Source of the DNA: Limosilactobacillus caccae
Lineage (GTDB): Bacteria > Bacillota > Bacilli > Lactobacillales > Lactobacillaceae
Assembly (NCBI RefSeq): GCF_900156885.1
Contig: NZ_FTOY01000011.1
Coordinates: 486,501-550,500, forward strand
DNA length: 64,000 bases
Direction of reading: 5' to 3'
Shown here: positions 49,291 to 59,223 of the stretch, piece by piece
How positions within the stretch are numbered: position 1 is the stretch's first letter
Layout: the number at the start of each line of letters is the position of its first letter
Made by a program: the position numbers and the translations under genes
The notes under the pieces: generated by a model
Told to the model about the DNA's origin: nothing
Seen by the model: only the letters and a program-made list of their open reading frames with translations
Databases searched by the model: none

Positions 49291-49605
49291 CTAGTTATAT
49301 GGAATATGTTTAAGAACATCATGACTGCCCGTTGTAAGTAATAACAAAACTAGCCGATCATTTTCAAGTCGATAGCATAGGACCCAGTCATCGTTGTAGT
49401 CCCTATCTACATGGACATGCCAAATAGTTGGATGTCTACCCTGGATTCTTCCTAACTTATGCTTTCTTTTAAGCTCAGCTGTATTGTTCTCAGCTATTAG
49501 CTTAACGACTTTCTTAATCCTTTCTATTTCGTAATGCTTTCGTTTTAACTTCTTTACATTCCGCTTGAAAGCTGGCAACGTCGCCCCGTCATTTTTCGAA
49601 ATCAT
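49291..49605 (-). CDS. YafQ/RelE-type toxin without adjacent antitoxin
   Basis: 104 residues: FKRNVKKLKRKHYEIERIKKVVKLIAENN, KHKLGRIQGRHPTIWHVHVDRDYNDDWVLCYRLENDRLVLLLLTTGSHDVL, which is the YafQ-like mRNA interferase fold with conserved His, Asp and terminal His. These toxins are normally preceded by a DinJ-type antitoxin gene. Both strands of the 220 bases upstream contain no such frame; stop codons interrupt every reading. The ribosome site is weak (TGGAAACG). Either an orphan toxin or a decaying locus. Confidence 0.78.
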   Translation of the reverse strand: MISKNDGATLPAFKRNVKKLKRKHYEIERIKKVVKLIAENNTAELKRKHKLGRIQGRHPTIWHVHVDRDYNDDWVLCYRLENDRLVLLLLTTGSHDVLKHIPYN

Positions 49606-49825: not shown

Positions 49826-52321
49826 TTATTTCAAAAAGTGGATATGGGCACCAATAACCTTATCACTGCCAGGGTGTTCACCCGTGACCCGTAAGGCCTT
49901 AAATGGAAATGTTGTCCGGTAAGTAACTACTCCCGGATCGCGCTCTGGCTTTAAGATGGCAGCGGTCTGCTCACCAAGGCCATCAGTGTTTAACCGAATA
50001 AACAAGCCGGGAAGGTTTAAGCGGAGAACCTTTGAAAGGAAGGCAGTCGCTGTCAGCGGTAATGGCTGCACACCGACCTGCTGGTAGTCCCCTTCACCAT
50101 CCTGTTCAAAGATTACCTGGTAAAGTCCGGGCTGCTGTTCATCCATCAAGGCAGCACTGGCCTGCTCACCTAATTGCTGGGTGATATTTGTCGGTAGCTC
50201 TGCTGGATAGCGGAGAGCCGTCGCCTGGTAAGTCAGCTCCGTTGGTGAAAACAGGCTTGCCATCGTCCCTAATGGATAGGCGTACTTGCCGTCATAGACA
50301 AAGTTAAAGAAGTAATGCTGGTTTTCATTATCTACCGGATTAGCCGGTAATTCATCAGGAATGACAATCAATTTTGCCTTCAAGTCATACTTCTTAAGGG
50401 CGGCCAAAAGGTTTGCATAACTGGCTGGAATAACCAGCAGCTGCGGTTGCTCAACATTGATGATCTGTAAGATGTTTTCAACCGTCGCAGGCTCAATATA
50501 GCGCTTATCCGTCAAGAGTGGGCTAAGGGTGACCGAACTTGGGTTAGAGTTAACGATAATGTTGTTGAAGCCCTCACTACGCAATTGCTGGAGCATCATC
50601 GCCACAAAGTAGTCCCCCGCATTGCTTAAGCCTAGGCGAAGGCCACCCGTCCCGATGACTAGTGCTGCCGGCTGTGGTGTCTTACTGATCTCATTTTCAT
50701 CCTCAAGGGCAGAGTAAAAGCTACCTGTGTGCTGGTCAAATTCACCGGCCGACGGCTCAATCTCCTTGTACTTACTAGTCAACTGGTGGTCGACACACAT
50801 CTGATAAACCTGCTCCTGGGTCGTATTCCAAAGGCTAGCAATCAGCTGGTTACTTAAGCCGTAATACTTCGCCTTTTTGAGGACCGGTTCCTTGCCCGCG
50901 TGTTCAATGATGTCCTTAATCAGCAACCGCATCTGGTTGATCTGGTCAAAGTAGAAGGGGTCAATTTTGGTCATTTCAGCAAGTTCACTGACCGAGTACC
51001 CCCGCTCCATTGCCTCAATTAAAACAAATAGCCGGCCAGCTTCTGGGTGAACCAGCTTGGCGATCAGTTGATCTTCCGTCAACTTTTTCTGGGCGGCAAG
51101 ATGGAAGTCTGTCGGCTCATGGTAGCGGGATTCAATCGCCTTAAATAAAGCTTCAATACTACTCCGACCAATTCCAAAGACAGTCCCAACTGACCGTTTC
51201 TCCGTCCCTAATAAGTGACTAGCACCAGGAATAACGTCAAAGCCCCAGATCGGTACCCGGGCTGCGATGTGGTCCATCGTCGGTTCTATTAAGGCTGCGT
51301 GGTGGACATAGCTTGGCCCAAGGTCAATGTCACGTAGGTGCTTACCAAGGTAGAGCTGGGCAGCTACTAACGCAATTGGATACCCCGTCGATTGACTTGC
51401 AAAGGCAACCATTCGGTCAAAATAGGGACTACTCTTGATTACATAAAAGCGATCGCTGTTCGGATCAAGGGCAAATTGCAGGTGGTTTATCCCAACAATC
51501 CGCAGTTTTCGGGTAATCGCAAAGGCCGTGTCCCGCATATCCTGAATCTGGCGGTCAAGCAAGGTCTGCACAGGGTTGAAGGCAATCGAATCACCAGCGT
51601 GAATCCCGATTGGGTCCATGTCCTCAATCATTGCCAGCATCATCATCGTCCCGGATGCATCACGTTGGACGACCAGCTCAATTTCCTTAAAGCCGGCCAG
51701 ACTCTGCTGGACAAAAACCTGTTCCGACCGTGACTGGTCAAGGCACTGCTTAACTGCATCAGCAAGTTCACTCCGGTCGTGAACAATCCGCCGGGTACTG
51801 CTACTCTTTGGCAAAACAGAGCGGATGATGACCGGGTAGCCAATTTTCGTTGCTTCATCAAGGGCGTCCTGGTAGTTATTCACGGTGACCGTCTTCTTGA
51901 CCGGAGCTTCCATTTGCCGGAGGGTGCGCTCAAGTAGGACCGCGTTATTAACCTGGCGGATCGTGGCTTCAGGAACCCCCAAGATCTTGATTCCTTCCTT
52001 ACGCAAGATTCCCTTCTCCAGTAACTCCTGGGTGAGTTCGAAGGCCCGCCGGTTCCCAAGCGTCGGTAAAATTGCATCCGGGTGGTAATCCTCAATAATC
52101 TTGACCAAGCTCTCTACTTTTAGCGGGACAACGCAGCCATGGTCGACCACCGCCGTGTTTTCGAGGCTAACAGAGAAAGGATTATCATCAGCAAGAATTG
52201 TTTTGACCTTTAGCTGTTTAAAAACGCGGGCAATCTGGTAAATCGCTGAGTCAAGCTCATCCCCATGCTGGACATCGTTTGCTCCCGCGCCAATTATCAA
52301 GACAGATTTGATTGCTGCCAT
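49826..52321 (-). CDS. Shortened, catalytically degenerate carbamoyl-phosphate synthase large-subunit-like protein
   Basis: 831 residues against about 1060 for CarB. The N-terminal synthetase half is alignable (EIELVVQRDASGTMMMLAMIEDMDPIGIHAGDSI, LQFALDPNSDRFYVI, ASQSTGYPIALVAAQLYLGKHL) but its ATP-grasp residues are gone: the glycine-rich RPxFTxGGxGGG loop is RSVLPKSSSTRR (167-178), and the metal ligands of VIExNPR are VIKSSPY (Lys296, Ser298, Tyr300). GGQTALN is TLGNRRA. The second synthetase half is about 200 residues short and the C-terminal allosteric domain is missing. No stops interrupt it, and its ATG overlaps the stop of the carA-like gene (TAATG). It cannot be a normal synthase; a binding or regulatory role, or recent decay, is inferred. 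Confidence 0.75.
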   Translation of the reverse strand: MAAIKSVLIIGAGANDVQHGDELDSAIYQIARVFKQLKVKTILADDNPFSVSLENTAVVDHGCVVPLKVESLVKIIEDYHPDAILPTLGNRRAFELTQELLEKGILRKEGIKILGVPEATIRQVNNAVLLERTLRQMEAPVKKTVTVNNYQDALDEATKIGYPVIIRSVLPKSSSTRRIVHDRSELADAVKQCLDQSRSEQVFVQQSLAGFKEIELVVQRDASGTMMMLAMIEDMDPIGIHAGDSIAFNPVQTLLDRQIQDMRDTAFAITRKLRIVGINHLQFALDPNSDRFYVIKSSPYFDRMVAFASQSTGYPIALVAAQLYLGKHLRDIDLGPSYVHHAALIEPTMDHIAARVPIWGFDVIPGASHLLGTEKRSVGTVFGIGRSSIEALFKAIESRYHEPTDFHLAAQKKLTEDQLIAKLVHPEAGRLFVLIEAMERGYSVSELAEMTKIDPFYFDQINQMRLLIKDIIEHAGKEPVLKKAKYYGLSNQLIASLWNTTQEQVYQMCVDHQLTSKYKEIEPSAGEFDQHTGSFYSALEDENEISKTPQPAALVIGTGGLRLGLSNAGDYFVAMMLQQLRSEGFNNIIVNSNPSSVTLSPLLTDKRYIEPATVENILQIINVEQPQLLVIPASYANLLAALKKYDLKAKLIVIPDELPANPVDNENQHYFFNFVYDGKYAYPLGTMASLFSPTELTYQATALRYPAELPTNITQQLGEQASAALMDEQQPGLYQVIFEQDGEGDYQQVGVQPLPLTATAFLSKVLRLNLPGLFIRLNTDGLGEQTAAILKPERDPGVVTYRTTFPFKALRVTGEHPGSDKVIGAHIHFLK

Positions 52322-53403
52322 TAATGACGTGCCTCCCTTCTCTTCATCGTGTCAACAAATTCGTCAAACAAGCCATCGGTTTCATCAGGACCCGGCGCCC
52401 CATCAGGGAAAAACTGCACCGAAAAGGCCGGATAGTGCCGATGGCGCAATCCCTGGACGCTATTATCAATCATGTCGACATAGGTGATGAACAACTGGGA
52501 GCGGTCAACTGAGTTGCGGTCAATCGCATAGCCCTCCCCCTGGGTCGCATAGACGACATGGTCAGTGATGATTTCATGGATGGGGTGGTTCATCCCGTGG
52601 TGTTCGACCGGCATCCGTTTTACTTTGGCGCCATTGGCAATCCCAAATAGCTCGTGACCAAGCCCGATCGCAAACAACGGTACCTTGGTCTGGACCGTCC
52701 GGATCATTTGCAAAACAGAAGCCTTGACATAGCGCGGGTTGCCAGGACCACTCGAAAGGACAACCCCGTCTGGGTCAAGCCGGAGAATTTCTTCAGCCGT
52801 CGCCGTGTACGGTAAAACGGTAACGTTACACTTCCGCCGACTAAGCTCCCTCAATACCCCGTGCTTTAACCCAAAGTCAACGACTACAATACTCAAGCCC
52901 GTTCCCGGGTTCGGGTACGGCTTTGGCGTTGAAACCTGGGCAACCTGCTGGTTCGTTAACACGGTGGCATGAAGTTGGTCAAAGGCGTGGTCATCAGGGA
53001 CCGGGACAATGCTCCCCTTTAGTGGTTTGTTGGCTGCCCGGAGCTTATGGACTACCGCCCGCGTATCAATCCCGGTAATGCCCGGAATATTCATCTGCTG
53101 GAGGTACTGGTCAAGGGTCATCCGCCGGACGTTATTTGTCGCCACGTCTGAGAGGGACCGGACAATTACCCCCTTAATCGTCGGGACAATCGACTCGTAA
53201 ATATTCCGCTGAATACCGTAGCTGCCAATGTTGGGCTGCGTGAAGACGACGAGCTGGTTATTGTAAATCTGGTTAGTGATGATTTCTTGATAGCCGGTCA
53301 TGCTGGTGTTGAATACGACCTCCCCGAAGGTAACGGCGGGGGCGCCAAACCCCTTCCCAGCAAAAATCGAACCGTCTTCAAATATTAGGTATCGTGCTGC
53401 CAC
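52321..53403 (-). CDS. CarA-like protein lacking the glutaminase catalytic residues
   Basis: 360 residues, full CarA length. The CPSase small-subunit domain (1-150: FEDGSIFAGKGFGA, FNTSMTGYQEIITN) and the class I amidotransferase domain (170-350: SSGPGNPRYV, ANGAKVKRMPVEHHGMNHP) are both present. The nucleophile Cys of GICLGHQ is Gly247 (AIGLGHE), the catalytic His/Glu of QYHPEA are Phe332/Asp334 (QFFPDG), and the SQNHG loop is TQGEG. All three triad positions are therefore lost, so glutamine cannot be hydrolysed by the normal mechanism. GTG start behind AGGAGAGTGG. It lies between rluD and the carB-like gene, where pyrR-pyrP-pyrB-pyrC-pyrAA would stand in Bacillus. Confidence 0.8.
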   Translation of the reverse strand: MAARYLIFEDGSIFAGKGFGAPAVTFGEVVFNTSMTGYQEIITNQIYNNQLVVFTQPNIGSYGIQRNIYESIVPTIKGVIVRSLSDVATNNVRRMTLDQYLQQMNIPGITGIDTRAVVHKLRAANKPLKGSIVPVPDDHAFDQLHATVLTNQQVAQVSTPKPYPNPGTGLSIVVVDFGLKHGVLRELSRRKCNVTVLPYTATAEEILRLDPDGVVLSSGPGNPRYVKASVLQMIRTVQTKVPLFAIGLGHELFGIANGAKVKRMPVEHHGMNHPIHEIITDHVVYATQGEGYAIDRNSVDRSQLFITYVDMIDNSVQGLRHRHYPAFSVQFFPDGAPGPDETDGLFDEFVDTMKRREARH

Positions 53404-53487
53404 TTTACCACTCTCCTAAAGCACTTGTTAAAAATTGATCAAGTATTATTATGAACGTCTTTGATACTAAACACAAGGATTTGCCTA

Positions 53488-54399
53488 TTATTGGTCAGTC
53501 TTTTCTAAATGGTCGACCATCTGTTGAAAGTAAGCCGGTAGCGGGCTGGTAAAGACCATCTCCTCACCTGTCCGTGGGTGCTTAAACCCTAACAGCCGAG
53601 CATGAAGGTACTGGCCATTTCCGGCCAGCGTCTTCCGCGGACCATACAAGGGGTCGCCTGCTAAGGGGTGGCCAATGTATTTCATATGCACCCGGATCTG
53701 GTGCGTCCGCCCCGTCTCCAACCGGCAGGCAACGAGGGTATAGTGCTTAAACCGTTCTAAAACCTTAAAGTGTGTCACCGCATGCCGGCCATCAGCGACA
53801 ATTGCCTGCTTTTTCCGATCCTTCAACGACCGACCGATTGGGGCATCGATTGTCCCGCTTTCTTCCTTAATTACCCCGTGGACAAGTGCAACGTACTCCC
53901 GCTCATTCGTCTTGGCCTTCAACTGGGCAGCTAGTGAACGGTGGGCCATATCATTTTTTGCTACCATCAACAGCCCCGACGTGTCCTTATCAATCCGGTG
54001 AACGATGCCTGGCCGAAATTCACCGTTAATCGTCGACAAAGGGCAGTGATAAAGCAAGGCGTTAACCAGGGTATGGTCAGGGTGGCCCGGTGCAGGGTGG
54101 ACGACCATTCCCTGGGGCTTATTAACCACAACCACATCATCGTCTTCATAGACAATATCTAGAGGAATCTTTTCCGGCTCCAGGTCGATTTTCTTGGGCT
54201 CCTCTGGCAAGATCTTAACATGGTCGCCAGTGCTTAGCTTGTACTTTGGCTTCACCTGTTGGTCGTTGACGACGACATGGCCGTCTTCTATCCAGTGTTG
54301 GAGCTGGGAGCGGGAAAACTGGGTAAAGTGATGGCCTAATTGCTTATCAATTCGCCCAGTCATTTCAGCGGTAATCGTTAGTTCAATTGCTTCTGTCAT
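53488..54399 (-). CDS. rluD: RluD-family 23S rRNA pseudouridine synthase
   Basis: 303 residues. An N-terminal S4 RNA-binding domain (about 15-75) precedes the catalytic domain with HRIDKDTSGLL, where Asp137 is the nucleophile, and TGRTHQIRVHMKYIGHPLAGDPLYG. It isomerises uridines of large-subunit rRNA. Follows lspA by one base, the order also found in Bacillus (lspA-ylyB). Confidence 0.92.
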   Translation of the reverse strand: MTEAIELTITAEMTGRIDKQLGHHFTQFSRSQLQHWIEDGHVVVNDQQVKPKYKLSTGDHVKILPEEPKKIDLEPEKIPLDIVYEDDDVVVVNKPQGMVVHPAPGHPDHTLVNALLYHCPLSTINGEFRPGIVHRIDKDTSGLLMVAKNDMAHRSLAAQLKAKTNEREYVALVHGVIKEESGTIDAPIGRSLKDRKKQAIVADGRHAVTHFKVLERFKHYTLVACRLETGRTHQIRVHMKYIGHPLAGDPLYGPRKTLAGNGQYLHARLLGFKHPRTGEEMVFTSPLPAYFQQMVDHLEKTDQ

Positions 54400-54400
54400 G

Positions 54401-54847
54401 CTAGTCCTTCTCCCTTAAAATGCAAATGATCAACCACACTACCCCGACAGTCAAGCAAACATCTGCAATGTTGAAGATGGGGAAGTTGATGAAAAGGGTC
54501 TCAAACATGTCGACAACGTAGCCCTGGCTTAATCGGTCAATAAAGTTTCCCAGGGTGCCAGCCATCACCAGGCTGAGGCCAACCAGCATTGCCCCATTTT
54601 TTCGGTAGCGCCAGATGAAATAGCTAATCACCATAATTGCAATTACGGTAATCAGCGCAAAGAAGCCCTGCCTGCCTTCAAGCATACTCCAAGCGGCCCC
54701 GTCATTGCGCAGGTTAGTCAGGGCTAATGTCTGGGGAATAACTGTCCGGCTGGCCCCCAGGGCAATCGTTGAAACAATCCAGTGTTTTAATAATTGGTCA
54801 CAAATTGTTAAAATAATGATAATGACTGCAGAAAATACCAGTAACAC
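54401..54847 (-). CDS. lspA: Signal peptidase II (lipoprotein signal peptidase)
   Basis: 148 residues, four membrane helices. The catalytic aspartates are Asp104 (AGTLGNFIDRL) and Asp129 (FNIADVCLTVG). Cleaves prolipoproteins at the cytoplasmic membrane. Directly follows the EbsA-like gene with no gap, and leads into rluD. Confidence 0.93.
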   Translation of the reverse strand: MLLVFSAVIIIILTICDQLLKHWIVSTIALGASRTVIPQTLALTNLRNDGAAWSMLEGRQGFFALITVIAIMVISYFIWRYRKNGAMLVGLSLVMAGTLGNFIDRLSQGYVVDMFETLFINFPIFNIADVCLTVGVVWLIICILREKD

Positions 54848-58837: not shown

Positions 58838-59223
58838 GATGCAAGAGTCTGTAGGCCATGTTTTGTCGTAATATGGCCATCAGGCATGACCATATCGAGG
58901 TAATCATCTATCTCAGAGCAAAAAGCTCTCCCCTGGAATCACTTCAATTCGTTATCCAAAGCTCCCCTACCGTAGTTTGGGTTTACCGCTTGAGGGGTTT
59001 ACCGCGTTCCACCAATCCGGTTTCCCGGATTGTATCGTCACTGTGGCACTTTTCAGGAATACTAGGACATAGTAAAACCGTAGCCCGTTTTTCCGCCGTC
59101 ACCGTTGCCGGTGCCCCGCCTTATTTTTTCAGCGAGCACAAACACTACAGGCATCGCAGCCTGTGCGAGCATGGACCTTCCTAACACAACCAACGCTGTG
59201 CTCAATTACCCAAAACTTGCATC
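58838..59223 (-). ncRNA. rnpB: RNase P RNA, type B
   Basis: About 386 nt. The universally conserved segments are readable on the minus strand: AGGAAGGTCCATGCTCGCAC near the 5' end, GAAAAGTGCCACAGTGACG, GGTGGAACGCGGTAAACCCC, AAACCCAAA, GGTAGGGG, and the 3' part AGATAGATGATTACC ... ACAAAACATGGCCTACAG. Terminal helix: GATGCAAG (59223-59216) with CTTGCATC (58845-58838). It is the catalytic subunit that matures tRNA 5' ends; Bacillus-type architecture. Ends inferred from the closing helix. Confidence 0.95.

Follow-up and report, generated by a model that had tools for sequence, protein, structure and literature searches.

Two adjacent genes in a stretch of 64,000 nucleotides from Limosilactobacillus caccae (contig NZ_FTOY01000011.1, positions 486,501–550,500; the whole stretch is called the window below) resemble carA and carB, which encode the glutaminase and synthetase subunits of carbamoyl phosphate synthetase (CPS). 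We refer to them as psA (CarA-like pseudo-glutaminase, window 52321–53403, minus strand, 360 aa, GTG start) and psB (CarB-like pseudo-synthetase, window 49826–52321, minus strand, 831 aa). They very probably form an ancient, non-catalytic pair maintained by selection. The lost residues are those needed for glutamine hydrolysis and for both ATP-grasp half reactions, and the genes are under purifying selection, as measured on few usable pairs. Homologues with these two properties are pseudoenzymes, and this status of psA and psB is well supported by their residues. Both open reading frames (ORFs) are intact. They share base 52321, a one-base overlap, in a TAATG stop/start junction (52319–52323, minus strand), and AGGAG at 53413–53417 (minus strand), 9 nt 5' of the psA GTG, is the likely ribosome-binding site as read from the sequence. 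The intact frames, the junction and the ribosome site had been reported in an earlier note on this DNA, which took the genes for a retained pseudoenzyme pair and not for simple decay. The ORF coordinates and the AGGAG confirm the former, and the latter has held. As a whole the interpretation is partly supported; the note did not foresee that the pair is ancient and general, that most relatives have pyrR beside it, and that many genomes keeping it lack CPS and even PyrB.

For the residue comparison, 111 loci were aligned for each gene, with one Loigolactobacillus rennini locus (L153) kept apart, and identical sequences were merged, leaving 97 distinct psA and 98 distinct psB. These were compared with 36 intact CarA and 34 intact CarB, the lower number of CarB being due to the exclusion of fragments shorter than 950 aa. 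Residues are given in the Escherichia coli numbering, placed by alignment and motifs, and functional roles are those of the aligned E. coli residues.

In psA of the window, Pfam domains CPSase_sm_chain (PF00988, the CarA N-domain) and class-I GATase (PF00117) are found, and the protein scores above the CarA cut-offs of TIGR01368 (359.8 vs 307.35 bits) and NF009475 (425.1 vs 221 bits). It lacks the catalytic pair of the glutaminase, Cys269 being replaced by Gly247 and His353 by Phe332. The position of the nucleophile Cys269 is Gly in all 97 psA and Cys in all 36 intact CarA, while that of His353 is Phe (81 sequences), Ser (13), Leu (2) or Asn (1) in psA and His in 36 of 36 intact CarA. Gln273 is replaced by Glu in 95 of the 97 psA. 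Gly247, Phe332-Pro333-Asp334 and TQGEG are present as the earlier note had named them, but its reading of Asp334 as a loss does not stand: Asp occupies this position (355) in 95/97 psA and also in 35/36 intact CarA, and hence the lost members are the Cys and the His. The positions that have switched and then become fixed in psA are C to G247, Q to E251, R to H269, E to D310, and E to Q317. Residues 131–154 were considered as a new conserved motif and dropped, as most of them are already common in intact CarA. The structure model of psA, built from an alignment of 39 of the 50 named psA and the window psA, was mediocre (pLDDT 78.4, pTM 0.53, a TM of ∼0.5 to E. coli CarA) and is given no weight.

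psB of the window comprises CPSase_L_D1, D2, and D3, that is, the pre-ATP-grasp, ATP-grasp, and oligomerisation domains of CarB, but fails the CarB cut-off of TIGR01369 (486.8 vs 1027 bits, compared with 1537.3 for the CarB of the same genome) and is 234 residues shorter than that CarB. The metal ligands of the first ATP-grasp site are replaced. E299, N301, and R303, present in all 34 intact CarB, are Lys296, Ser298, and Tyr300 in the window, as had been claimed; overall, the E299 position of the 98 psB is taken by Lys (83 sequences) or Arg (15), N301 is lost in 80 and kept in 18, and R303 is kept in none, Tyr taking its place in 80. The earlier claim of a shortened second half without the allosteric domain is correct in that Pfam finds the MGS domain in the CarB of the same genome and not in psB. 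This half has not just been truncated, though, as the end of the ATP-grasp domain is still recognisable by eye; in the core of the second ATP-grasp site, no psB residue aligns with R675, R715, G721, or G722 (a gap in 98/98). Among the retained residues are H243 (94/98) and E215 (93/98), and the conserved gains include Arg177 from Gly (97/98) and Lys or Arg296 from Glu (98/98), both of which add positive charge where the ATP phosphates and magnesium of the enzyme sit.

The structure model of psB, built from a 48-row alignment (47 of the 50 named psB and the window), has pLDDT 88.7 and pTM 0.91. It matches E. coli CarB (1BXR, 1JDB, 1C30) with a TM of 0.87–0.89 (0.88 by query, root-mean-square deviation 4.3 over 923 columns), which suggests that the CPS architecture is kept; in the model, the CarB fold with its pre-ATP-grasp and oligomerisation domains seems to persist in psB. 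The pattern of losses is uniform in the 97 psA and 98 psB and absent from the intact CarA and CarB. The recurrence of the substitutions in several species, which the earlier note had proposed as a check, thus extends across Lactobacillaceae, and identical substitutions in dozens of species are not due to chance.

Selection was estimated with a Nei-Gojobori script on 16 distinct Limosilactobacillus loci, using only pairs with synonymous divergence (dS) of 0.05–1.2. The ratio of nonsynonymous to synonymous divergence (dN/dS), expected by the earlier note to lie below 1, is about 0.02 for psA (0.013–0.021; 4 of 120 pairs usable) and about 0.04 for psB (0.032–0.049; 3 of 120), with 0.027–0.054 for the upstream rluD-like gene and 0.042–0.104 for lspA (3 of 120 pairs each). 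In Levilactobacillus, the values are 0–0.025 for psA (8 shown of 13 pairs) and 0.011 and 0.074 for psB. Both genes are therefore under strong purifying selection, judging from these few pairs. Such constraint, together with the several residues switched and then fixed and the CPS-like fold of the model, could also mean that the old scaffold catalyses a different reaction. We consider a new enzyme unlikely: the metal-binding Glu has become Lys or Arg and the nucleophile Cys has become Gly in every sequence, the metal-site Asn survives in fewer than a fifth of psB, and inspection by eye revealed no new catalytic motif.

psB was found in 174 of the 301 sampled Lactobacillaceae genomes, representing 20 of 40 genera. 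This count comprises 169 genomes detected by a profile of the psB C-terminus (E < 1e-15) and five Pediococcus-type genomes (G004, G129, G153, G230, G261) that are weak on this profile and were added by protein search; G028, with a CarB-like match at psB strength and a weak match to the C-terminal profile, was excluded. Of the 175 genomes sampled in these 20 genera, only one (G174, 76% complete) lacks psB. A DNA pattern for GIGLGHE, tried as a psB marker, was replaced by the profile: it recovered only 68 of 301 genomes and missed the window, being too strict because the residue before IGLGHE varies. psA adjoins psB in every locus read (61 in one set and 50 in another, a smaller sample than the 174 genomes). 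Outside Limosilactobacillus (g1) and Paucilactobacillus (g3), identity to the window is 30–39% for psB and 46–66% for psA. No psB was found outside Lactobacillaceae in a search of 198 genomes of the order, of which at least 26 belong to the family; the best outside match had E = 2.8e-13, and all listed matches outside the family lie in ORFs of at least 1004 residues.

The best 80 named loci divide into 50 psA and 30 CarA keeping the Cys. The psA come from Limosilactobacillus, Paucilactobacillus, Lactiplantibacillus, Secundilactobacillus, Pediococcus, Levilactobacillus, Periweissella, Furfurilactobacillus, Lentilactobacillus, Weissella, Apilactobacillus, Leuconostoc, Fructobacillus, and some unplaced records, and the Cys-keeping CarA from Lacticaseibacillus, Loigolactobacillus, Latilactobacillus, Enterococcus, Lactococcus, Streptococcus, and uncultured Lactobacillales. 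A tree was built from 62 proteins (32 of the 97 psA, 29 of the 36 intact CarA, and the L. rennini CarA), in which psA form one clade on a single side of a branch with support 100/100 and a stem length of 0.74. Its placement beside the CarA of Lacticaseibacillus, Enterococcus, and Streptococcus has weaker support (91/75), and some of the intact CarA sit on long branches. Many of the Cys-keeping CarA are found behind lspA-rluD-pyrR, as are the Cys-intact CarA/CarB in Lacticaseibacillus, Loigolactobacillus, Latilactobacillus, and Enterococcus loci. By sequence, psA-psB is thus homologous to CPS and stands where the pyr-operon CPS stands in other Lactobacillales, in agreement with the earlier view of a remnant of the pyrimidine operon.

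L. rennini DSM 20253 (locus L153, 1189–5513) carries full-length but partially degenerate carA and carB beside the same downstream gene. The Cys is kept, while His353 is Leu, E299 is Ala, N301 is Lys, and several second-site residues are lost; no other CarB match above 70 bits was found in this genome. As L. rennini groups with L. iwatensis, whose CarA keeps the Cys, this is apparently a second, separate case of CPS degeneration. Its degenerate CarB still exceeds the TIGR01369 cut-off, so passing this threshold is no proof that a CarB is active, and "intact CarB" in the other genomes below denotes a score, not an assay.

The position of the pair, the shortness of psB, and the example of L. rennini would all fit ordinary decay, in which leftover pyr genes drift to loss with frames intact by chance. 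We give this explanation next to no credence, as it is already contradicted by the dN/dS of about 0.02–0.04, by identical replacements in 97–98 distinct sequences, and by the near-universal retention of psB within its genera.

Whether functional carAB exists elsewhere in the genome had been raised as another check. By sequence, an intact carAB is present (L033, 8569–13016), and a PyrR RNA element lies ahead of its carA (56.5 bits against a cut-off of 54). Apart from it lies a pyrBCDFE operon (L174, 8084–12646), also with its own PyrR RNA element, and the genome has one strong PyrR match, which is not beside psA. The earlier statement that the pyr genes are missing therefore holds for the locus but not for the genome. 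In other genomes the situation differs: no CarB match stronger than psB was found in 35 of the 174 psB genomes (one of them, G165, is 87% complete), and 27 of these 35 have no PyrB match over the cut-off either (best 3.9e-41, or none; for three, inferred from absence in the match table). These include 13 of the 14 sampled Levilactobacillus genomes (g15, the genus being inferred from a PyrR identical to that of L117). psA-psB could be an inactive partner or assembly factor of genuine CarA/CarB, since it has the same architecture and the window genome also has intact carAB, but the genomes without intact CarB, among them that of the nearest named relative (L094), make this improbable. In three genomes (loci L043 and L044 of the Limosilactobacillus-group genomes G215 and G130, and G077), an intact carB accompanied by a pyrR of its own is located only ∼7–15 kb upstream of psA-psB on the same strand.

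psA scores above the NCBI CarA cut-offs, so lactobacilli without CarB and PyrB, including most of the Levilactobacillus sampled, seem to possess a CPS subunit. This database label is misleading, and metabolic models may assign such lactobacilli a reaction they cannot run.

The common gene order in relatives is lspA-rluD-pyrR-psA-psB. A pyrR gene separates the rluD-like gene from psA in 40 of 61 loci (L089 being placed by PyrR search), and one representative was confirmed as PyrR. The 21 loci without linked pyrR, the window included, are exactly those of Limosilactobacillus and Paucilactobacillus. In the window, psA is directly preceded by the rluD-like gene (53488–54399, minus strand), which encodes an RluA-family pseudouridine synthase (TIGR00005, 341.5 bits, cut-off 192.7) scoring below the cut-off of the RluD equivalog model, and then by lspA for signal peptidase II (54401–54847, minus strand; TIGR00077, 114.2 bits, cut-off 73.95). 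lspA is present in 53 of the 61 loci, while the rluD-like gene adjoins pyrR or psA in all 61 and stays when pyrR is absent, which might tie the function of the pair to one of these genes and not to pyrimidines. We find such a tie scarcely credible, since intact carAB of other Lactobacillales is found behind the same gene order, and the linkage is probably inherited. Downstream of psB lie an ORF for a YafQ-like toxin (window 49291–49605, minus strand; PF15738, 49.5 bits) and then a convergent gene of 561 aa related to EfbA/RqcH, under both cut-offs; no ORF of at least 25 aa that could be an antitoxin was found between the toxin ORF and psB. The window also contains class B RNase P RNA (58847–59217, minus strand; Rfam RF00011, 307.8 bits).

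Two genomes assigned by inference to Lactiplantibacillus (g38) each contain two strong PyrR. One copy is located at the pyr operon and the other next to psA, and the two are 64.6 and 63.6% identical within the respective genomes. PyrR1 and PyrR2 of L. plantarum are said to be 62% identical, and deletion of PyrR2 reportedly makes growth of this species CO2-dependent. A literature table lists PyrR1 as lp_2704 and PyrR2 as lp_1782, and the introduction of a paper states that both answer to pyrimidines and inorganic carbon. By elimination from the two Lactiplantibacillus genomes, the psA-adjacent pyrR is probably the gene of the published PyrR2.

Each of the 15 genomes tested that lack CarB and PyrB has a single strong PyrR, located beside psA in 14 and elsewhere in G276. 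PyrR RNA elements were matched in 23 of 26 genomes (E ≤ 0.001), in 14 of them above the curated cut-off. At 20 read of the 46 listed elements, the next genes encode nucleoside deoxyribosyltransferase and a cytosine-type permease, uracil-type permeases, or a transporter of the MFS family; three of these 20 places showed no clear target on that strand. The elements also precede pyr genes in genomes having them. In genomes without CarB and PyrB, they precede uracil- or cytosine-type permeases or nucleoside deoxyribosyltransferase, and once the MFS transporter, and PyrR thus seems still to govern salvage and uptake in pyrimidine auxotrophs. In L184, L187, and L190, the matches are below the curated cut-off and the listing has no same-strand ORF close downstream.

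As the active sites are lost and the pair is nevertheless kept under strong selection, it probably has a different, non-enzymatic job. The best explanation of the whole, to which we give about an even chance, is a non-catalytic CPS-shaped complex serving as a ligand sensor in the PyrR-governed pyrimidine economy. psA and psB would still form an alpha-beta complex with a sensing or scaffolding role. In psB, the first ATP-grasp pocket would have become a metal-free, positively charged site, with Arg177 replacing a Gly, Lys296 replacing the Mg-ligand Glu, Arg or Lys at the 169 position, and His241, Asp244, and Ser245 kept. Such a pocket would suit an anionic ligand (nucleotide, carbamoyl phosphate, or bicarbonate), which would be bound but not turned over. 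Binding may be signalled to the PyrR-controlled pyrimidine network through the neighbouring PyrR in most lineages, and in Limosilactobacillus and Paucilactobacillus to the remaining unlinked PyrR or another partner; this signalling step is the least certain. Sensing of an anionic ligand with a signal to PyrR would account most economically for the anatomy and the neighbouring gene.

Several points weigh against a sensor coupled to PyrR. The window lineage keeps the same fixed residues without a linked pyrR, which excludes PyrR2 as the sole partner. Divergence is much faster in psB than in psA, which is odd for a precise receptor, and the switched charges could be structural. An attenuator was looked for in the window, and no PyrR RNA element was found before psA; of the 46 elements listed from 26 genomes, only one is at the psA-psB operon, before pyrR (G044). 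The link to inorganic carbon comes from one passage of a paper's introduction and from an abstract.

A bolder form of the sensor reading is that the whole CPS complex, both subunits, was converted once, in an ancestor of the lactobacilli carrying it, to a dedicated sensor. psB would bind the unreacted ligand (bicarbonate, carbamoyl phosphate, or nucleotide) and inform PyrR; the pair would then be the missing receptor through which inorganic carbon controls pyrimidine genes and which underlies CO2-dependent growth in L. plantarum, and would govern uptake alone in auxotrophs. We regard this version as unlikely. If the pair is a sensor, it would be a concrete candidate for coupling CO2/bicarbonate or carbamoyl phosphate to pyrimidine gene control in lactobacilli; in the literature searched, we found no named receptor for the published inorganic-carbon phenotype.

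Pseudoenzymes are a known kind of protein. Our literature search, which did not cover the PyrR2 papers themselves, found no description of the PyrR2-adjacent pair as pseudoenzymes, and no report of a CPS in which the active sites of both subunits are lost and which is kept with near-invariant replacements across ∼20 genera. Compared with known systems, psA-psB resembles genuine CarAB (PyrAaAb), including the E. coli structures, in the fold, the carA-carB order, the arrangement of domains in the first half, and the presence of the oligomerisation domain. By contrast, it lacks the glutaminase Cys and His, the Mg ligands of the first ATP-grasp site, the core of the second one, and the MGS domain. 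The psB model also matched chains 5DOT and 5DOU of vertebrate CPS1, whose glutaminase domain is inactive. Both systems thus retain a glutaminase domain that no longer works; however, CPS1 is still an active, ammonia-using synthetase, whereas the synthetase half of psB has also lost its active sites. The published inorganic-carbon regulator PyrR2 of L. plantarum (lp_1782) is the probable product of the pyrR beside psA. Inactive dihydroorotase homologues, such as pDHO of Pseudomonas and the one in yeast Ura2, are structural partners of aspartate transcarbamoylase. Like them, psA-psB would be a dead enzyme of the pyrimidine pathway conserved for a non-catalytic role, but there the active partner is present, while 27 of 174 genomes keep psB with no detectable CarB and PyrB.

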